Shown here: positions 11,084 to 21,956 of the stretch, one piece after another
How positions within the stretch are numbered: the stretch's first letter is position 1
Layout of the letters: each line of letters starts with the position of its first letter
Source of the DNA: a virus
Reading direction: 5' to 3' (one strand)
IMG/VR virus record: IMGVR_UViG_3300032093_000948
Span: 1-21,956 of that record
DNA: 21,956 nt
Notes under the pieces: generated by a model
What the model was told of the DNA's origin: nothing
Databases searched by the model: none
Seen by the model: only the letters and a program-made list of their open reading frames with translations
Program-made: the position numbers and the translations under genes

Positions 11084-11601
11084 GTAGATTAAGCGCACTA
11101 AGTCCAACAGCTTTACAGGCTATGTTTGGACAAGAAACAGATAAAGAATTAATATTACTATTAACTATATATGATCCTAGTAATCCTACACAAGTAGTTT
11201 TAAGACTATGCGACGGATTTACTCAGCGTATAAGTGAAACTGCTGATGAAGTTACATATGGAGTAATTAGTAGATCTAATAGTTACATATTCCTACCTAT
11301 GGAAGTAACAATGCCAGATGAATCAGATACTAATGCTCCAAAATGCTCAATAACTTTGTACGATGTTACTAGATATGTAATGCCTGTAGCAAGAAGTATT
11401 GATGGCCAACCAAAAGTTAAATTAGAGTTAATAGTCTCATCTACCCCTGACATAGTAGAAGCAAGTTTTAGTAGTTTTTATATTACTAATTTTTCTTATA
11501 CAGCAGATAGAGTTAATATTGAAATGTCAATGGTTGGATATGAACGGGAACCTTTTCCGCAGTATTCTTTTACACCAGCATATTTTCCAGGACTATTCTA
11601 A
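11080..11601 (+). CDS. Minor tail protein, DUF1833-like (gpL position)
   Basis: A 173-residue beta-rich protein between the M-like and the tip endopeptidase genes, the slot of lambda gpL. The sequence pattern resembles DUF1833 tail proteins: 'LSALSPTALQAMFGQETDKELILLLTIYD', then 'RLCDGF', a Tyr-rich 'YIFLPMEVTMPDESDTNAPKCSITLYDVTR' block, and a repeat-like second half. It has only two Cys residues, so unlike lambda gpL it cannot carry the C-terminal iron-sulfur cluster. It probably forms part of the tip hub; no enzymatic role is seen. It overlaps the genes on both sides (ATGA before, TAATG after). Confidence 0.65.
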   Translation: MSRLSALSPTALQAMFGQETDKELILLLTIYDPSNPTQVVLRLCDGFTQRISETADEVTYGVISRSNSYIFLPMEVTMPDESDTNAPKCSITLYDVTRYVMPVARSIDGQPKVKLELIVSSTPDIVEASFSSFYITNFSYTADRVNIEMSMVGYEREPFPQYSFTPAYFPGLF

Positions 11602-14600
11602 TGTGGTCAAATAAATATATAGGTATACCATTTAAAACTAAAGGGCGTGACTATACCGGCGTCGATTGTTGGGGACTAGTACGTCTTGTGTATATGGAAC
11701 AGTATGGTATTGAACTACCTAGTTTTGCCGATGAATATGTTCACCAAGATTCTAAAAGAATTGAAGAATTAATTAGTCAATATAAAGAAGGCTGGCAAAA
11801 GCTTGACGTTCCAGAGCCCGGATGTATAGCTTTATTTAGAAGCCTAAGCACGGCTACACACGTTGCAGTAATGATATCGTCCACAGAATTTATACATTCT
11901 CGTAGTGGATATGATGTTGCTATGGGAAGTATACAAGGTACAAGATGGGCTAGTAGATTAATTGGATTCTTTAAATATGTAGAGGCTACTAAAGCTAAAC
12001 TTGAAGAGTTACCCCTAGCCCTAGAAACAAAAACAATTGTTTTTGAAATTAAAAATAATAATACACCATTAATTGAAGTTGTTAATAAACTAACAGAAAA
12101 AACAGGGTTAAAACCCAGTAGTTTTATTATTTTATTAAATGATACTATAATTGCTGAAGAATTATGGGAAAAAGTAACTGTACAACATGCAGATGTTGTT
12201 GCATATCGTCAAGTACCTGGTGACGAAGACCTTGGTAGATTAGTATTAGTACTTGCAGTAGTAATTTTTGCAGCAGAATATGCTGCAGTACAGGGTTTTT
12301 CAGCAGCTGGAAAAGCTGCTTTTCAAGTTGCAGCAGCTACCGCAGCAAGTTTTGCAGCAAATGCTATATTTCCCGTTAGACCTCCACCAGAACCAAAAGA
12401 TCCTCTCAGCAGTGAGAGTCAATCAATGGTCCAAGGAGGCGCTAATAGTCCAAATCCATATGGAGCTATACCCGTAGTACTTGGAAAAGTGCGAATGACT
12501 CCGCCACTTGCTGCTCAAAATTATATTACTTATCCAGAAGAGCGCATTTCCTACTTAACAACAGCATTAGCCTGGGGATTTGGCCCACTTAGTTTTAGTA
12601 ATTTTAAAATAGGTGAAACAGATATAGCAGACTATTTAATAAAAGATAGTATAACACTTAATGGATATACTGATTCAGCAGCAGATATTCTTAAATTTAA
12701 TCAGCTATACTCTAGAGATGTAGACCAGCCTCAATGGAATCCAGTTACTATGGTTTGTGATGGCAGTCCTGGATTTCAAACTACTACACAAGAAACAACA
12801 ACTTCTGATGGTGAATATGGCACATATGTTATTAATGTTACTGTTCCTACTAATACGCCAATAGCCTCACCCGGTATTTATTATAATCCTCCAGGTTCCA
12901 CTAGTACTGCTATAGATGTTTCACTAGCTTTTCATATGCCACAAGGTATGCGTAAAGTTATTGTTAAAGGTAGTGGAGCAGGAAACTCTGAGGAGGCTCT
13001 TGTACGCATACAAACTCAGTATAAGTTTAATAACGGCCCATGGCAAGACTGGGAAACTTTTGATATTACAGGTATAAAAAAAGATGCTTATACTATTGTT
13101 AGAACTAAAACTTTTAGTACAGAAGGTTTAATACAAGTACAAGCTCGTAGATTAACAGGTGATAATACAGAGGATGACCCTACATATAGATATTATCATG
13201 ATGTAGTATTATTAAATGTTACTTATACAAGTAATAGAAATCCTATAAAAATTCCACCTAATACTTACCTAGCAAGAAGTGTTTATATAGTAGAAGCATC
13301 AAACCAACTAAACGGACAATTAGAAGGTATAAATGCAATTGTGCAAAGTAAATGTAGACCTATTAGTGCTACTCCTGGCTCAGACTATACCTTAACTACA
13401 AGTAATCCTGCAGCACTATTTTTTCATGTACTTACGCACCCAGCAAATCCTCAGCGAATACTAGACAGTGAAATTAGTGAAAAAATTAATATACAACAAT
13501 TACAGTATTGGTATACATATTGTGATACTTCTAGATCAATTTCTTTTTTTGACTATAATATAAATAGTACTATTGAAAGATACTATAAGTATGAGTATAA
13601 TGGAGTAATTGCTGAGCAAAGAAGTATACTAGAAGTATTACGAGATATTTGTGCTGCTGGCAGAGCAAGTCCTGCAATGATAGATGGTAAATGGACAGTT
13701 GTAATAGATGAACCTAAATCAACAATTGTTCAACATTTTAGTCCTCACAATAGCTGGGGGTTTGAGGGAACTAGAGCCCTGCCTAAAGAACCAGATGGAT
13801 TAAAAATAACTTTTTATGATGAAGAACAAAACTATCAACAAGTAGAAACAATAGTATATAATCTAGGAAAAAACATTAATAATGCACAACTATTTGAAAC
13901 TATTAGTCTACCCGGTGTAACTAATAGAGGCTTAGTAGTTGATCATGGTAAGTGGCATTTTGCTCAGCTAAAACTACGTAGAGAATTATATACTTTAAAT
14001 GCAGATATAGAATACTTAGCATGTAATCGAGGAGATCGTGTAAAGGTAACACACGATGTTCCTGCTTGGGGCCTAGGTAGTGGCAGAATAAAAGAAGTAT
14101 ATGTTGATACTAGTAATAATATAAATATTATTGAACTAGACGAAACTGTTCCCCTAAGTAATACAAGTCAATATACTATTCGTATAAGATCAAAAACAGG
14201 ACAAAGTACTACAAGTCAGGCCGGTACTCAATTTACTTTTTCAGGGTATACTAGAACAGGTAATACAATATCAATTACGTTAGGAAACACATATGGTACT
14301 GTGCCTTTTGATGAATATAATCCAATAACTATTGAAAGTACAGATACTGGTATTAATGTTACAAATAAAATAGTAAGTATTAATAGACAAACAAAAACAA
14401 TTAGTTATACAGTTACAACTACTGGTACTAATGGTTTTAATGCAGCAACAGGAACTATAAAATTAACACAATCTGACTATAAGTATTTAATACTACAATC
14501 ACCTGTTACTATAGCTAGCAATTTAATTAATACTGGTGATTTATTTATGTTTGGGCAATTAAATCAAGAAAGCCAAGATTTAATTGTTTTAAGTATTGAA

Positions 14601-15431
14601 CCTACAGCAAATAAAACTGCAAGACTTTCATTAGTAGACTATGGTGTTACCAGTAGTTATAATATATTTGAAGGTTATAAGAATTTTACTGATCCTATAG
14701 TCTTTCAAACTAATATAACTCTTCCACCAGAAAAATTACGTGATACGTTTACTAACTTACAAGTTCCTCTTGTAACTAGTATATATAGTGATGATAGAGC
14801 TGTAGAAATAGTATCGCCAGGCGTATATAAGTATAACATAAAAATTAGTTATGCAACACAAACTAATTTACCTACTAATACAAAATATATTCAATGTGAA
14901 TATGCATATGGTATAGATACATCTATTAATAACACTAAGATAATAACTTCTGAATATCTTACTAATACTTTAACCATTACTGATGTAATAGCTGGCGAAC
15001 AGTATAAATATAGACTACGATATGTAACTACGGATAATATAGTAGGACCTTGGACACAATGGGCCAATCATACAGTACAAGGTATTACTACTAATAAAGA
15101 AAGTGTTGCATCTGTAGCAATAGTTAGAATTGGTAAATATCTAAGAATTGCTCCAACTTTAACAATTATACCTAGTAATTTTAAATATTTTAGAATTAAA
15201 ATATTTAAAGATAGTGGTACAGGAGATTTTTGGACTAATACGGATGCAAGTATTAAAACTGTAACAACTGCTGCTAGTTATATTGATTATAACATATTAG
15301 AATTTGCTTCGCCCAGAATTAGTGAGGCTGGTATTAAATATAGAATCGCTTGTAGATTAGTAGATACAGCGGGTAATGAAAGTAGTATAAGTGCGTTAAA
15401 TAGTATAACACTAACTACAATAAATCCATAG
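11601..15431 (+). CDS. Tail tip protein: NlpC/P60 endopeptidase + gpI-like + gpJ-like fusion
   Basis: A 1276-residue protein joining three lambda tip functions. Residues 1-128 are an NlpC/P60 cysteine peptidase (lambda gpK type): 'DYTGVDCWGLVRL' with the catalytic Cys23, 'HVAVMI' with His87, and a second His (His99, 'FIHSRSG') in the third position; this would cut peptidoglycan. Residues about 142-206 look like a beta-grasp domain, followed by 'DLGRLVLVLAVVIFAAEYAA' and an Ala-rich hydrophobic stretch (210-257), as in gpI-type proteins. From about 258 the gpJ core follows: 'NPYGAIPVVLGKV', 'YLARSVYIVEA', 'SILEVLRDICAAGRAS', 'GDRVKVTHDVPAWGLGSGRI' (about 812-834). A beta insertion lies at about 870-960, and residues 1046-1276 are fibronectin-III-like. 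It overlaps the upstream stop (TAATG). It is intact, with no frameshift. Confidence 0.85.
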   Translation: MWSNKYIGIPFKTKGRDYTGVDCWGLVRLVYMEQYGIELPSFADEYVHQDSKRIEELISQYKEGWQKLDVPEPGCIALFRSLSTATHVAVMISSTEFIHSRSGYDVAMGSIQGTRWASRLIGFFKYVEATKAKLEELPLALETKTIVFEIKNNNTPLIEVVNKLTEKTGLKPSSFIILLNDTIIAEELWEKVTVQHADVVAYRQVPGDEDLGRLVLVLAVVIFAAEYAAVQGFSAAGKAAFQVAAATAASFAANAIFPVRPPPEPKDPLSSESQSMVQGGANSPNPYGAIPVVLGKVRMTPPLAAQNYITYPEERISYLTTALAWGFGPLSFSNFKIGETDIADYLIKDSITLNGYTDSAADILKFNQLYSRDVDQPQWNPVTMVCDGSPGFQTTTQETTTSDGEYGTYVINVTVPTNTPIASPGIYYNPPGSTSTAIDVSLAFHMPQGMRKVIVKGSGAGNSEEALVRIQTQYKFNNGPWQDWETFDITGIKKDAYTIVRTKTFSTEGLIQVQARRLTGDNTEDDPTYRYYHDVVLLNVTYTSNRNPIKIPPNTYLARSVYIVEASNQLNGQLEGINAIVQSKCRPISATPGSDYTLTTSNPAALFFHVLTHPANPQRILDSEISEKINIQQLQYWYTYCDTSRSISFFDYNINSTIERYYKYEYNGVIAEQRSILEVLRDICAAGRASPAMIDGKWTVVIDEPKSTIVQHFSPHNSWGFEGTRALPKEPDGLKITFYDEEQNYQQVETIVYNLGKNINNAQLFETISLPGVTNRGLVVDHGKWHFAQLKLRRELYTLNADIEYLACNRGDRVKVTHDVPAWGLGSGRIKEVYVDTSNNINIIELDETVPLSNTSQYTIRIRSKTGQSTTSQAGTQFTFSGYTRTGNTISITLGNTYGTVPFDEYNPITIESTDTGINVTNKIVSINRQTKTISYTVTTTGTNGFNAATGTIKLTQSDYKYLILQSPVTIASNLINTGDLFMFGQLNQESQDLIVLSIEPTANKTARLSLVDYGVTSSYNIFEGYKNFTDPIVFQTNITLPPEKLRDTFTNLQVPLVTSIYSDDRAVEIVSPGVYKYNIKISYATQTNLPTNTKYIQCEYAYGIDTSINNTKIITSEYLTNTLTITDVIAGEQYKYRLRYVTTDNIVGPWTQWANHTVQGITTNKESVASVAIVRIGKYLRIAPTLTIIPSNFKYFRIKIFKDSGTGDFWTNTDASIKTVTTAASYIDYNILEFASPRISEAGIKYRIACRLVDTAGNESSISALNSITLTTINP

Positions 15432-15439
15432 GAATATAA

Positions 15440-18400
15440 ATGTCTGCACAAATATTTCCAGCTGTAAAAGGATTACAGCTAGTTGTTGAACCACCAATTG
15501 ATAGTGCTACCGGACAAGTTCGTGATGACTTATCCGGTATCAAGGTATGGTATAGTACTCAGAATAACATAGATACCACAACAGCTCCTCAACTAAAAAG
15601 TGATAGTTTAAATATTTTTATTCCTGATTTGTTATCTGGTACTTTATATTATGTAAAGTATGCACTAGTATCATACTTAGATGAGGCCCAATTTAATGAT
15701 TCAGAAGTACTACAAGCCACACCCCTTAGTGGAGCAGTAGCAGTAGATTTATCAATAGGTACACAGGTATTTACTTACACTGCTCAAGGCGAAAATCCTA
15801 GTCCGGCTAATACTACAATAACTGCTACAGCTCGTAATACTAGTGGTACAGTTTACTATGAATTTATACTAGCTGGAACTACTGTACAAAATACTAACGC
15901 AAATAGTTATACATATACTCCACAAGCTAATCAAAGTAATATGCCACAACAAATTGTGGTTAAAGTAAGAGAACAAACCAATAACTCAACTGTACTAGCT
16001 CAAGATACCATAACACTAATAGGAGTTAAACCAGGTGTTAATGGTATTGACGCTGTTAGCGGATTTTTAACTAATGAGTCCGCTACAGTAAGTACACTAA
16101 GTGACGGCACTGGTGGAGTATATACTAGTGCTGGTGGTACTTTTAGAGTATATAGTGGTATTACAGATGTTACTGTCAGTGCTACTTATAGTGTAGTTAC
16201 TGCCAATACTACGGGTGGTTTAAGTATTAGTATAAATACAGCAGGAGTTTATACAGTAACTGGTTTAACAGATGATAGTGGTACCGCTACACTAAGAGCT
16301 GTATACGGTACGGTTACTATAGAAAAAATATATAGTATTAGCAAAAGTAAACAAGGTATTGGTGGTACCCCAGGTATTCCAGGTACTAATACAGCTCAAG
16401 TAGTATTGTATGCTAAAAATATAGATCCTATTAATGCTCCAGCTAGTTTTAGTGGAACTTTTACCTATACCTTTAGTACAGGACAATTAACTGGTGGTAC
16501 ACTTAATGGTTGGAGTACTACTCCTCCTAGTATAGGTAATGGAGAGTACTTATGGGCTAGATATGCTGTAGCTGCTAGTAATAATGCTACAGATACTGTA
16601 CTAACTACTGACTTTGGAGATGCTGTAGTAGATAGTATTGGCGGTATTAATGGCAATCCAGGTACTAATACAGCTCAAGTAGTATTGTATGCTAAAAATA
16701 CTAGTAGCACAGCTGCTCCAGCTAGTTTTATCGGACCTTTTACCTATACCTTTAATACAGGACAATTAACTGGTGGTACACTTAATGGCTGGAGTACTAC
16801 TCCTCCTAGTATAGCTAAAGGAGATTACTTATGGGCTAGATATGCTGTAGCTGCTAGTAATACTGCTACAGATACTGTACTAGATACTGATTTTGGAGGT
16901 GCTGTAGTAGATAGTATTGGCGGTATTGATGGTAATTCTGCAAAAGCAGTAGACCTAACTGTAAGTACACAGGTATTTACTTATACTGAGGAAGGAACTA
17001 GCCCTAGTCCTATTAATTCATTAATAACTGCCAGTGCTCGTAATACTACTGGTACAGTATATTATGAATTTATATTAGCCGGAACCACTGTACAAAATAA
17101 TGCTGAAAATACTTATACTTATATACCTAAAGCATCACACTCTAATATGCCGGAACAAATAACGGTTAATATTAGACAGGGAACAAATGACTCAGCTATA
17201 TTAGCTAGCGATGTCATAACACTAATAGGAGTTAAACCCGCTATTAATGGTACTGACGCTGTTAGCGGATTTTTAACTAATGAGTCCGCTACAGTAAGTA
17301 CACTAAGTGACGGTACTGGTGGAGTATATACTAGTGCTGGTGGTACTTTTAAAGTATATAGTGGTATTACAGATGTTACTGCCAGTGCTACTTATAGTGT
17401 AGTTACTGCCAATACTACGGGTGGTTTAAGTATTAGTATAAATACAGCAGGAGTTTATACAGTAACTGGTTTAACAGATGATAGTGGTACCGCTACACTA
17501 AGAGCTGTATACGGTACGGTTACTATAGAAAAAATATATAGTATTAGCAAAAGTAAACAAGGAGCTAAAGGAGATACTGGTGAAGCAGCTTATTCAGTAA
17601 CTTTAGTAACAAGTGCTCAAGCTATAACATATGATCAAGATGGATCAAATCCAACACCTTCTCCTATTATTATAAGCGGCACAATTAAAAGATTAGGCCA
17701 GTTTATTGCTAGTGATAGTGATCCTGACTGGGATTACACCTATGATTTTCAAGTAGATATAAATAATCAATCTGGTTCCTCTGATGTATACGTATATTCT
17801 CCTCCAAGTACTTTTACCAATAGTTCAATATTAGTATCATTAAATGTATATAAAGTTCCCAAAGGCCAGTCTAGTCCTTCATATATTGTAGGCTCAGATC
17901 AAATAAGTCTTGTATCTATTAAACCAGGTGATAAAGGTGATAATGGTACTAGAACAGCTATTTTAGAATTATATAGATGGGGCACTAGTGTTCCAACTAC
18001 TTTTCCTATAGGCAATACTGTATATACTTGGGCAACAGGATCATTTACTACTAATCAATTAACTTTAAATGGCTGGTCCACCATAGATTCGGTTGGAAGC
18101 GGCACCGCAAATCAAACTTTATATGTTACTAGACAAATTTATACGGATACTACTACTGAGGCTACAAGTTTAATTGGTTGGACAGCTACAACTGTAGCAG
18201 GTGTTGGACTTAATGGTTCAAACGGTACTTCAGGTACTTGGACAAAATATGTTTATGCATATAAATTAGCTAATCGTGTAAATAACAGTACAGCTTCTGT
18301 ACCTCCAGCAACACCAGCAGGCGGCGTGTTTAATATAAACACATTTGAATTAGCACCTCCAGATGGTTGGTTAAATTTTCAACCATCAAATACGGGTGGT

Positions 18401-21400
18401 ACTGTATATGTAAGTCGTAATAGAGTAGGACCTAGTCAAGCTACTACAGGTAGTATTAATATTTCTGGAACTTGGTCTACTCCGTTACCCGCATCTCAAA
18501 TACTTGAAAATGGTGCATCTTATACTTATGATGTAGAATCGGCTACTTCAAGTTATGTTCCAACCGTAGGAACTACAACAGTATACACAAAAGCAGCTTC
18601 TACAGGCCAAACTCCTACAACACCTAGTGGTGGAACATTTTTATTTGATATTAATACAAGCAATACTACAACAGCGCCTACCGGTTGGTACAATACAATT
18701 GCCTTAGTAGATGCCGCAGCATTACCTGCACAAAATCCAGTATTTCAATCCAGTACTACAATAACTACTGTTAGCGATATTTTATCTTATACTCCTACGT
18801 GGTCTAGCCCCCAGTATCAATTTCGAACTGGAGGACAAATTTCAGCAAATGTAATTCAAAGAGATAATTTAAGTAGAAACTTTACTACAGCAAGGATTTG
18901 GAGAGAAGTTTTAGGTAGTGGCCCACAACCAAATAGTGCAAATAGAATTGCATTTAGTGCAACATCAAATGTTATAGTAGCTTTAGCACCTGCTGCTATT
19001 AACTATTCTGTAGATGGAGGATCTTTCACCAATACTACTACTAATGTACCAAATGTTACTTTTAGAGGTATAGCTGCAAGTACTAGTTATATGGTATTAA
19101 GTCGTAATACCGCAAGTTCAACAATTTATGTTAATACTTTGTCTAACGGATTACCTTCAGCTACTTGGACTACTGTATCATTAGGTACTGCTATAGGTAG
19201 TTCAATAATGTCTATTTATAGTATTATTAAGTTAAGTTTAGGCTGGCTTGCAGTAGGAGATATTAGTGGAACAGGTGCCATTATTTACTGTAATAATGAT
19301 GACCCTAGAACTGCTGGAAACTGGTCTCAAGTAACATCAATTCCTTGGGGAGGCACGGGTACACTACCAGGACTACGTAGTGTTGCACAAACTATGGTAG
19401 GTGGTACTACTATAACTGTAGCAGTAGGTGTTAATGGTACTGTAATACAATCTTTATATGCTACACCCAATACAGGAGCAGCTTGGACTAATAGTTATGG
19501 TCCAGGAATTGGTGAAATTTTTACAGGCAGTAGCTCTGTAACTATTAATACAGTTGCAGCACATCCTTCAAGTCTTTATTTTGGAATATTTTCTATTGGT
19601 TTTGATGCCAATGGGCTAACTACTCCACAAACTTATCTTATAAAGTATAGTTATGGAGGCTCTCCAACAGTATATACGCATCCTGTTATTACAATTCCAG
19701 GATATACTACACCAATTAAAATTTTAAAGTTAAGTTATTCATACAGTCTAGAATTACTATTTGCTGTTACAAATCTAGGATTATTTGTTTCTAACATTAC
19801 ATTAAAAGGTGCTGATTCTTATCCTTATTCTATCGGAACAGATACTTGGAGAATGATTTCTGCTAGCGATCCTTGGGGGGATGTAACTAGTTCAAATATT
19901 GCAACTACTCAAGCAGGATACCTTTTAGCTATATTTGTTGCACCATTTAGTTATACTGATAATAAATATTATTACCTAGGAACTCCAACTAGTGCTGAAC
20001 TACAGGTTTCATTTTTACGTACTAGTCCACAAGTTGGAGATGTAGTTAGTGTTCAACTAAATAGTAGTATTTCACAGGGTGCTACAGATAAAAACTTTAC
20101 AATAGGATTACGCTGTACTGGTGTTGGTAGTACGGGTCTTGCAAGCGGAGCTACTTGGTCACGAGTTGCATCATGGATAGATGGCGACATGGTTGTGTCT
20201 GGATCTATTACTGCAGACAGTTTAGCCGTAAATTCAATTATTGCTGAAAAAATTCAAGCTGGTAGTATTACAGCTGAAAAATTATCTGCTAATACTGTGC
20301 TAGTTAATCAATCACTAACAGTTGGTAATCCTGTTGTTAGTGGAACAACTATTAGTTCTGGTAGTGGAGCTGTTATTACTGGAGGATCTACAACCAGTAC
20401 AAATACGGTTGCTTTTGGTAATAGTAGTGGAAACATTGTAGTAAAAGACGGTACGATTAATTTAAATGGTAAAATAGTTGTACCAAAAAATGCTGCTTTT
20501 GGAATGATCAGCGAAGCTTTACTTTATAATATTGTTGCACCGCTAGGAGTTAGTCTTCCTAGTATGTCGGAACAAAACCGCAGCGTAAAACTTGAAATAT
20601 CTACAACACCTACTATATATATTCCTACTGATGATCTTGATAAAGTATTTAAAATACATATAGAATTAAATCTTCATGTAAACATAAAGGTAGAATTATA
20701 TGCTGGTTATATAGGTATGCGAATAATTAGAACTAATATTACTGATGGAGGTATTCCTCCAACAACTATTGATGGTTTAAACTCAAATTTTGATAGTATT
20801 GTATCAACATCAAAAACTTGGAGTAATCAATTAACTCCTTGGGGTGAATGGCCACATAATTTAACCACTACTCTTACACATTCATTAATAGAAAGTACTA
20901 CAGATTCAGTTCCACCTAATTACTACTTTTTTCAACCAATTACACCAGGCAAAACTTATGTTTATACAGTATTTCTTTTTGCAGAAAGAAATAATACTGT
21001 TAATACTGCTTTATACCAAACAGTTCAGCCTTCTACAATTGTTGGAGATAGTACATATATTCCTAGTCAACAATACTATCCTGAATACGGTCAACTTTTT
21101 ACTACAGTAAGTAATGTTCTTCCCGAAAATTATTTTCCATTAAGCTTTTATGGCAGTCCTACATATTCTAATGTTTTAACTGTTAGTGGTGCAACATGGA
21201 ATACTAATTCATTATTAAGAGGTATGACAGTATATGGGCCAGGTGTTCCTCCTAGAACCGTTATTTTAAGTGTACTTAATAGTACACAAATATCATTATA
21301 TACATTTACTGGTAATAATTTTGGGAACAGTGGTGGATATTTGCCAAAAATACCAGGAGCTGTTAATGCTGGAAAAACTTATTATTTTGGACCACCTTTA

Positions 21401-21607
21401 ATTACTGGTTTAACAGCTGATAATGTAATAGTATTTGGAAATTGGACTTTTCTTGCAGGTACTCAACCTAGATTTATTTGGCCTAAAATAAATAGCGATG
21501 ATTATAACAATAGTATACGTATAAATCCTCTAGGTATATACAGCGGAGCTTCAGGTACAGGTAGTACTATTCAATTAATTGGATATTACACTCAAAGTAT
21601 TGTTTAG
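15440..21607 (+). CDS. Giant modular tail fibre / receptor-binding protein
   Basis: A 2055-residue protein, AGGA ribosome-binding site at 15430-15433, 8 bases after the tip gene. Domains: a fibronectin-III-like N-terminus (1-95), resuming the type that ends the previous protein; two Ig-like repeat units (about 101-306 and 503-708) plus a diverged half copy (about 717-830); two tandem 93-residue 'GWSTTPP...LWARYAVA' units (314-499) plus a diverged third (about 838-925); Thr/Ser-rich beta domains to about 1150; a propeller-like region (about 1165-1513); a trimerising stretch of the gpJ C-terminal type ('GSITADSLAVNSIIAEKI', about 1588-1605); and a C-terminal head (about 1690-2055) that is the best candidate for receptor contact. 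Short Gly-X-Y collagen-like hinges such as GAKGDTG sit between modules. It is followed by a terminator. Confidence 0.85.
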   Translation: MSAQIFPAVKGLQLVVEPPIDSATGQVRDDLSGIKVWYSTQNNIDTTTAPQLKSDSLNIFIPDLLSGTLYYVKYALVSYLDEAQFNDSEVLQATPLSGAVAVDLSIGTQVFTYTAQGENPSPANTTITATARNTSGTVYYEFILAGTTVQNTNANSYTYTPQANQSNMPQQIVVKVREQTNNSTVLAQDTITLIGVKPGVNGIDAVSGFLTNESATVSTLSDGTGGVYTSAGGTFRVYSGITDVTVSATYSVVTANTTGGLSISINTAGVYTVTGLTDDSGTATLRAVYGTVTIEKIYSISKSKQGIGGTPGIPGTNTAQVVLYAKNIDPINAPASFSGTFTYTFSTGQLTGGTLNGWSTTPPSIGNGEYLWARYAVAASNNATDTVLTTDFGDAVVDSIGGINGNPGTNTAQVVLYAKNTSSTAAPASFIGPFTYTFNTGQLTGGTLNGWSTTPPSIAKGDYLWARYAVAASNTATDTVLDTDFGGAVVDSIGGIDGNSAKAVDLTVSTQVFTYTEEGTSPSPINSLITASARNTTGTVYYEFILAGTTVQNNAENTYTYIPKASHSNMPEQITVNIRQGTNDSAILASDVITLIGVKPAINGTDAVSGFLTNESATVSTLSDGTGGVYTSAGGTFKVYSGITDVTASATYSVVTANTTGGLSISINTAGVYTVTGLTDDSGTATLRAVYGTVTIEKIYSISKSKQGAKGDTGEAAYSVTLVTSAQAITYDQDGSNPTPSPIIISGTIKRLGQFIASDSDPDWDYTYDFQVDINNQSGSSDVYVYSPPSTFTNSSILVSLNVYKVPKGQSSPSYIVGSDQISLVSIKPGDKGDNGTRTAILELYRWGTSVPTTFPIGNTVYTWATGSFTTNQLTLNGWSTIDSVGSGTANQTLYVTRQIYTDTTTEATSLIGWTATTVAGVGLNGSNGTSGTWTKYVYAYKLANRVNNSTASVPPATPAGGVFNINTFELAPPDGWLNFQPSNTGGTVYVSRNRVGPSQATTGSINISGTWSTPLPASQILENGASYTYDVESATSSYVPTVGTTTVYTKAASTGQTPTTPSGGTFLFDINTSNTTTAPTGWYNTIALVDAAALPAQNPVFQSSTTITTVSDILSYTPTWSSPQYQFRTGGQISANVIQRDNLSRNFTTARIWREVLGSGPQPNSANRIAFSATSNVIVALAPAAINYSVDGGSFTNTTTNVPNVTFRGIAASTSYMVLSRNTASSTIYVNTLSNGLPSATWTTVSLGTAIGSSIMSIYSIIKLSLGWLAVGDISGTGAIIYCNNDDPRTAGNWSQVTSIPWGGTGTLPGLRSVAQTMVGGTTITVAVGVNGTVIQSLYATPNTGAAWTNSYGPGIGEIFTGSSSVTINTVAAHPSSLYFGIFSIGFDANGLTTPQTYLIKYSYGGSPTVYTHPVITIPGYTTPIKILKLSYSYSLELLFAVTNLGLFVSNITLKGADSYPYSIGTDTWRMISASDPWGDVTSSNIATTQAGYLLAIFVAPFSYTDNKYYYLGTPTSAELQVSFLRTSPQVGDVVSVQLNSSISQGATDKNFTIGLRCTGVGSTGLASGATWSRVASWIDGDMVVSGSITADSLAVNSIIAEKIQAGSITAEKLSANTVLVNQSLTVGNPVVSGTTISSGSGAVITGGSTTSTNTVAFGNSSGNIVVKDGTINLNGKIVVPKNAAFGMISEALLYNIVAPLGVSLPSMSEQNRSVKLEISTTPTIYIPTDDLDKVFKIHIELNLHVNIKVELYAGYIGMRIIRTNITDGGIPPTTIDGLNSNFDSIVSTSKTWSNQLTPWGEWPHNLTTTLTHSLIESTTDSVPPNYYFFQPITPGKTYVYTVFLFAERNNTVNTALYQTVQPSTIVGDSTYIPSQQYYPEYGQLFTTVSNVLPENYFPLSFYGSPTYSNVLTVSGATWNTNSLLRGMTVYGPGVPPRTVILSVLNSTQISLYTFTGNNFGNSGGYLPKIPGAVNAGKTYYFGPPLITGLTADNVIVFGNWTFLAGTQPRFIWPKINSDDYNNSIRINPLGIYSGASGTGSTIQLIGYYTQSIV
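15740..16356 (+). repeat. Fibre direct repeat A, copy 1
   Basis: A 617-bp unit encoding about 205 residues, repeated at an offset of exactly 1206 bases. The right part (16048-16356) matches copy 2 with 3 differences in 309 bases; the left part (15740-16047) has clearly diverged, with differences every few bases. Confidence 0.93.
16379..16657 (+). repeat. Fibre tandem repeat B, copy 1
   Basis: A 279-bp (93-codon) unit directly adjoining copy 2. By my count the two differ at 26 positions, about 91% identical, with most changes clustered in one 18-base stretch. It encodes the 'TYTFSTGQLTGGTLNGWSTT' module. Confidence 0.93.
16658..16936 (+). repeat. Fibre tandem repeat B, copy 2
   Basis: The second 93-codon unit, in phase with the first. 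A third, strongly diverged relative ('LNGWSTIDSVG...TLYVTRQIY') can be read at about 17951-18228 in protein only, not in DNA. Confidence 0.93.
16946..17562 (+). repeat. Fibre direct repeat A, copy 2
   Basis: The second copy of the Ig-like unit, offset 1206 bases from copy 1. Bases 17254-17562 are the near-identical block; bases 16946-17253 are the diverged part. Confidence 0.93.
18935..19980 (+). other. Beta-propeller-like region inside the fibre
   Basis: Residues about 1165-1513 of the fibre show repeated blade-like phrases: 'INYSVDGGSFTNTT', 'GLPSATWTTVSLG', 'GWLAVGDISGTGAIIYC', 'AGNWSQVTSIPWGG', 'ITVAVGVNGTVIQS', 'GAAWTNSYGPGIG', 'YFGIFSIGF', 'LLFAVTNLGLFVS'. The alternation of 'W..V' with 'vaVG..G.ii' resembles BNR/Ycf48-type propellers. 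It lies just before the trimerising stretch, a plausible place for a glycan-binding domain. The assignment is from pattern only. Confidence 0.45.
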
Positions 21608-21633
21608 TAATATTTTATTAAGAAGTAATTAAG

Positions 21634-21670
21634 AAAAATACCCGCCCTAAACCAGGGCGGGTATTTTTTA
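21634..21670 (+). terminator. Strong intrinsic terminator after the fibre gene
   Basis: A 15-bp perfect stem (21634-21648 with 21654-21668; core ACCCGCCCT/AGGGCGGGT) with an AAACC loop runs through TATTTTTT. It lies 26 bases after the fibre stop and ends the tape measure-to-fibre unit. Its A/T flanks make it partly symmetrical, so it could also work on the opposite strand. Confidence 0.95.
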
Positions 21671-21672
21671 CA

Positions 21673-21701
21673 TTGACAACTTTATGCTCTTGTGTTACAA
21701 T
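21673..21701 (+). promoter_or_regulatory. Near-consensus sigma-70 promoter downstream of the fibre
   Basis: TTGACA (21673-21678), a 17-base spacer, TACAAT (21696-21701), with the -10 preceded by TGT. It has the same boxes, spacing and TGTTACAAT end as the promoter at 6087-6115, and starts 3 bases after the terminator. The start point is expected near 21708, giving a leader of about 75 bases before the next gene. Confidence 0.88.
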
Positions 21702-21782
21702 AGTTGAAAATGTCCATTTCAAAACTAAAATTTTCAAGGAGCCAAACCTTTTAGGCTACTGTACGGAAAGAAAGGGTAAAGA
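21702..21782 (+). promoter_or_regulatory. Structured 5' leader of the last gene
   Basis: The leader contains an imperfect inverted repeat TTGAAAATGTCCATTTCAA (21704-21722) at the predicted transcript start. Further on, AAGGAG (21736-21741) has no start codon at a usable distance; it may pair with CCTT (21747-21750), while AGCC (21740-21743) may instead pair with GGCT (21753-21756). The ribosome-binding site used is AAAGGG at 21771-21776. Any regulatory role is speculative. Confidence 0.35.
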
Positions 21783-21956
21783 ATGTTAGAAATATCAGAA
21801 CAAGTCATTCAAGTCTTGGGCCTTATTGCCATAGCCGTTGTAGCCGCATTTTTTGGCATCCAGCAGCTAATAAAAAATTGGAAAGCAACCCAAGCAGAGT
21901 CGGGGATTATACAAATTATGCACCGAGAGCTAGAGCGAATGGGTGAGCAGAATACT
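21783..21956 (+). CDS. Small membrane protein, 3' end outside window
   Basis: The first 58 residues of a protein that continues past the window. A short N-terminus (MLEISEQ) is followed by one hydrophobic helix (residues about 8-25, 'VIQVLGLIAIAVVAAFFG'), then a charged, helical stretch ('WKATQAESGIIQIMHRELERMGEQN') that looks like the start of a coiled coil. An in-frame TAA at 21777-21779 and AAAGGG at 21771-21776 fix the start. Small proteins of this shape are common beside phage lysis genes and may be holin-like or spanin-like, but none of these is shown by the visible part. It has its own promoter and so is uncoupled from the tail genes. Confidence 0.75.
   Translation, partial: MLEISEQVIQVLGLIAIAVVAAFFGIQQLIKNWKATQAESGIIQIMHRELERMGEQNT

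Follow-up and report, generated by a model that had tools for sequence, protein, structure and literature searches.

The analysed stretch, hereafter the window (IMGVR_UViG_3300032093_000948, 21,956 nt), belongs to a siphovirus-like phage and carries head-tail and tail genes. A tail tip gene of the lambda J type is recognised by Pfam (NLPC_P60, 5.5e-13; Phage-tail_3, 5.8e-9) and by phrog_31, central tail fiber J (9.8e-59). Directly on its 3' side starts a long modular fibre ORF, which places this ORF in the position of a J-associated straight fibre; the order J, then fibre is that of J and the straight fibre in Klebsiella Sugarlandviruses. Profiles (HMMs) made in this analysis resolve the first third of the fibre into domains, and the order along the protein is N-A1-B1-C1-C2-A2-B2, followed by a distal part. 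For the distal fibre (17561-21604), a single-protein scan of viral_contigs confirmed no relative. This region contains a coiled ITAEKL-type segment, the profile of which matches other fibres.

Features of the tail tip and fibre region, in window coordinates
Feature	Position	Strand	Evidence or remark
Lambda-J-type tail tip gene, 1276 aa, N-terminal NlpC/P60 domain	11601..15431	+	directly 5' of fibre
Modular tail fibre ORF, 2055 aa, without internal stop	15440..21607	+	phrog_38396 tail protein, 1.6e-18
Domain N (N-terminal)	15440..15733	+	kept among relatives
Domain A1, predicted beta-sandwich	15740..16036	+	HMM; AlphaFold2 model of A2-B2 unit
Gly-X-X linker GVNGID, between A1 and B1	16034..16051	+	change point 16048 inside
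Domain B1, near-identical block, predicted Ig-like	16048..16356	+	HMM, copy comparison, change-point scan
Gly-X-X linker GTPGIPGTN, just right of B1	16364..16390	+	
Domain C1, including leading Gly-X-X linker	16364..16654	+	HMM
Domain C2, tandem copy of C1 (279-bp spacing, ~90% identity)	16643..16933	+	HMM, repeat comparison
Domain A2, 25% diverged from A1	16946..17242	+	HMM, sequence comparison
Domain B2, near-identical block	17254..17562	+	HMM, copy comparison, change-point scan
Gly-X-X linker GAKGDTGEA, at B2 right edge	17561..17587	+	
Distal fibre modules	17594..21604	+	HMM

An AlphaFold2 model of the A2-B2 unit, built on an input alignment of 17 A-B units, is all-beta with two domains (pLDDT 84.7). 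Among its viral fold matches, with TM to the query of up to 0.71, are the tip attachment protein J and proteins of tail fibres. The PDB matches (cadherins, titin) span the two domains at an rmsd near 20 Å and only indicate an Ig/cadherin-like sandwich. As modelled, the window fibre is a J-associated modular fibre with beta-sandwich/Ig-like domains.

A sequence-only reading of this DNA had proposed that 16048-16356 and 17254-17562, offset by 1206 bases, differ at only 3 of 309 positions, third codon bases included, next to left flanks that have diverged. Direct comparison confirms the count and locates the mismatches at 16108 (C/T), 16146 (G/A) and 16176 (T/C); the left flanks (15740-16039 versus 16946-17245) differ at 75 of 300 positions. 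The sharp step that the same reading had placed at 16048 was recovered at that very base by a maximum-likelihood change-point scan over 617 aligned bases, with 76/308 mismatches to the left and 3/309 to the right. The associated LLR is 47.1, as compared to a maximum of 9.6 among 2000 shuffles. The longest run of identity between the copies is 180 bases, against a maximum of 96 in 20,000 shuffles. Fourfold-degenerate sites show the step as well, with 12/35 differing to the left and 2/57 within the block (p = 1e-4), in keeping with the near-identity claimed for third codon bases; amino-acid constraint is therefore no explanation for it.

Both limits of the block lie at Gly-X-Y linkers. On the left, GVNGID contains the change point; on the right, the block borders on GTPGIPGTN in one copy and on GAKGDTGEA in the other. 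The right edge is no drop in identity along homologous sequence: homology itself stops at the domain boundary, with module C after B1 and a different module after B2.

The order of events comes from comparison with L006, a related contig with 85% DNA identity to the window that carries N-A-B in the same place and breaks off eight bases short of the B1 end. Every close sequence is a metagenome contig; another one (L008) is 94% identical over J, and its record ends within J and holds no fibre elsewhere. In domain A, A1 differs from the L006 A at 40/300 positions and from A2 at 75/300, with 74/300 between A2 and the L006 A. Since A1 is nearer to the L006 A than to A2, the duplication of A predates the split between the window and L006. 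In domain B, the two window copies differ from each other at 3/300 positions, whereas 11 and 12 differences separate them from the L006 B. Ten sites distinguish both copies from L006, and at each of these B1 and B2 have the same base. Synonymous divergence (NG86 dS) between B1 and B2 is 0.013, about ninefold below that between B and its nearest relative (0.115 for B1 versus the L006 B); it is about 0.49 between A1 and A2 over a 198-bp stretch. Between the window and L006, dS is 0.50 for J and 0.55 for the tape measure. The B copies are thus closer within the genome than to their L006 counterpart, as in concerted evolution, and the adjoining A parts are not. Because the duplication of A is the older event, this points to homogenisation of B1 and B2 by recombination after the split.

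Such a pair is rare. IMG/VR contigs provided 129 B copies, among which the window pair, at 98.4% identity, is unique, and the next-best pair within one genome is 77% identical, which makes selection at the DNA level on all B copies unlikely. This comparison of copy identity in related genomes, which the sequence-only reading had suggested as a check, found no comparable identity. A genome_contigs search with B gave no relative, and the fibre repeats had no match at the DNA level in cultured phages.

Taken together, these data lead us to assign a probability of roughly 70% to a recent homogenisation of B within an old A-B duplication, by gene conversion or recombinational copying to the same effect, bounded by linkers. 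In this view, exchangeable domains would follow one another along the fibre, connected by short Gly-X-X linkers, and two A-B units (A1-B1 and A2-B2), with two C domains between them, would stem from an old duplication. After the split from L006, one B would have been copied over the other by non-reciprocal homologous recombination. We infer the pathway, which copy was the donor, and a capacity of this fibre to change length; the pathway would be gene conversion or an annealing of genome copies in the course of replication that has the same effect. The switch may have taken place in the left Gly-X-X linker, with the exchange running on until homology ends at the following linker on the right, such that exactly one domain was replaced. 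The three point mutations would have arisen since the copying.

One alternative is that no B2 was converted, and that a fresh copy of B was instead inserted beside A2, copied and pasted via Gly-X-X linkers. The coincidence of both block edges with linkers is consistent with this proposal, as is the occurrence of exact module duplication and linker-to-linker deletion in related fibres. As L006 ends at B1, a late arrival of B2 beside A2 by module insertion would produce the same picture. However, in 17 of the 18 untruncated cases among relatives B comes immediately after A, and an A2 lacking B would be an exception. This suggests that A2 probably already had its B2, so conversion is preferred over insertion, which we consider rather unlikely. 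Conversion, moreover, needs one event, with the reading frame kept by homology. The earlier proposal of recent recombination between the copies thus stands on the L006 comparison and the 129 B copies, and within it both conversion of an existing B2 and insertion of a fresh B fit.

A different source for the shared sequence would be a common circulating B allele, recombined independently into both positions from other phages. Divergence from L006 is far lower in B than in the backbone (dS 0.115 versus about 0.5). Positions 16049-16348 are the least diverged 100-codon stretch in the 11 kb common to the window and L006, synonymous sites included, and fourfold sites differ at 2/53 in B as compared to 347/1241 elsewhere (p = 1e-5). 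Phage-to-phage exchange or a constraint on B may therefore play a part, and PMC12654880 describes co-infecting phages that swap RBP fragments. Yet the same allele would have to be imported twice, separately, and ten bases are common to both window copies and absent from L006. As an account of the pair, double import is quite improbable.

Assembly error, in which a block was collapsed or duplicated, had been named as a hazard to the observation. The window and its relatives are short-contig metagenome records, and contigs tend to end in B. Against this, the copies have three distinct bases and different flanks, and an exact collapse would erase the differences. A separate IMG/VR record, L005, with 99.97% identity to the window, independently has the layout A-B-C-C-A plus the start of B2, ending mid-B2. 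An artefact is accordingly very unlikely. A B repeat in both contigs would make an assembler stop at such places: L005 ends within B2, and L006 just short of the end of B1. These contig ends at most suggest a repeated B there. L005 and the window B2 differ by two SNPs, at 17314 and 17352, with the B1 base in L005 at both. The sites look like a segregating conversion, but this reading was set aside, as the L006 bases equal the B1 bases and two mutations in the window B2 explain them equally well.

Purifying selection on B DNA or protein, holding all copies alike, would suit a domain slower to diverge than any other stretch shared by the window and L006, but is hardly credible given that B copies elsewhere, same-genome pairs included, are at most 77% identical and that B1 and the L006 B already differ by 8 synonymous codon changes in 100.

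The two near-identical 309-bp blocks could in turn provide a substrate for losing or gaining the 1206-bp unit B-C-C-A. The sequence-only reading had held that the fibre may grow, shrink or swap modules. Length change is found in relatives; in this lineage no growth or shrinkage was seen, and no length variant of 1206 bp was found. That B stays near-identical on account of a use for the repeat itself, the pair being a standing recombination site at which the population switches between a long fibre (two A-B) and a short one (one A-B) while conversion renews the homology, is a long shot. A programmed length switch of the fibre is possible but unsupported.

The same searches yielded 139 distinct fibre ORFs, among which 14 records show internal repeats that are 150 bp or longer and have 90% identity or more. 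In the fibre ORF of L195 (7741-8586), a 423-bp segment is duplicated exactly, in tandem and in frame; L196 and L197 lack the second copy, although an exact tandem repeat of this length can be mishandled by assemblers. Elsewhere the aligned stretches of these records share at least 99.9% identity, and the fibres are 1928 versus 1787 aa long. In the single-copy form, a 7-bp direct repeat, GGTGCTA, lies at the ends of the unit.

Among the closest known counterparts is the straight fibre of Klebsiella Sugarlandviruses (T5-like, PQ5697xx). The window profiles find A and B domains in it, and, like the window fibre, it lies directly after J and has Gly-X-Y linkers; unlike the window fibre, it has longer collagen-like linkers, and identity over A-B is about 31%. 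Six laboratory-evolved recombinants have in-frame losses in this fibre, of 3906 bp in rec9 and 3051 bp in rec11, 12, 13, 26 and 27, as measured against the parent vB_Kpn_K7PH164C4 (L250, PQ569735, and L254-L258, PQ569710-12 and PQ569726-27, versus L252, OY979402). The crossovers fall inside Gly-X-Y linkers, at four distinct positions. Evolved recombinants of this parent are published in PMC12654880, and the word 'straight' is absent from its main text. These recombinants have undergone module deletion, in contrast to the homogenisation in the window. The L195 duplication and the Klebsiella linker-to-linker losses indicate that module-scale recombination is ongoing in related fibres, which favours the recombination proposed for the window.

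Two known generators of fibre variation were considered and rejected. For a diversity-generating retroelement, the differences (C/T, G/A, T/C) are not adenine-directed, and no reverse transcriptase occurs among the scanned proteins of the window, which is a fragment. For an invertible fibre segment of the shufflon type, there is no inverted repeat of at least 40 bp in the window.

Fibre domains are multiplied in other phages. In the T4 tail-fibre adhesin, a small fibre domain was reportedly duplicated by recombination, as in the window (work of Tetart et al. in 1996, cited in PMC6365445), although the duplicated element is said to be an adhesin tip motif, as compared to an Ig-like shaft domain here. 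Beyond Klebsiella, the B domain is present in a fibre-like ORF of Enterococcus phage EF1. The tail fibre of Enterococcus phage EfV12-phi1 acquired 1.8-kb in-frame tandem duplications during coevolution (PMC6365445). It resembles the window case in that the gene is of similar size and its segments change copy number in the laboratory, answering host resistance; it differs in being the long tail fibre of a myovirus (Herelleviridae). A scan of this fibre for the window modules detected none, which makes it an analogue and not a tested homologue. Beta-sandwich BACON domains in the tails of crAss-like phages have likewise been multiplied, by duplication and transfer (PMC6949934), but the copies have diverged and the accessible part of that source reports no homogenised pair. 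Recently emerged tail-fibre mosaicism is also described for phage receptor-binding proteins (PMC10684548), where domain shuffling is an exchange between proteins, whereas in the window it would be between copies inside one protein.

Set beside these systems, the window case is a clear, well-supported example of known phage-fibre remodelling by recombination. It adds a dated example in which copies within a single fibre were homogenised domain by domain and the breakpoint lies in a Gly-X-X linker. In combination with the Klebsiella linker-to-linker deletions, this suggests that linkers mark the sites at which fibre domains are exchanged, lost and gained, a proposal testable by sequencing.

Three smaller observations concern other parts of these sequences. 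The tandem C1/C2 pair (16364-16933) has nearly equal dN (0.099) and dS (0.117), unlike the C pairs of L036 and L032, in which dS is far above dN. In a related fibre, L146 differs from the near-identical phage L145 at two adjacent bases of a repeated module (L146:11438-11439), each version matching a different copy; this is a possible case of segregating conversion. Finally, the 331 bp 3' of the fibre (21626-21956) are 93% identical to L009:21612-21944, as compared to only ~66-73% identity for most tail genes, and are likely another recombination patch.
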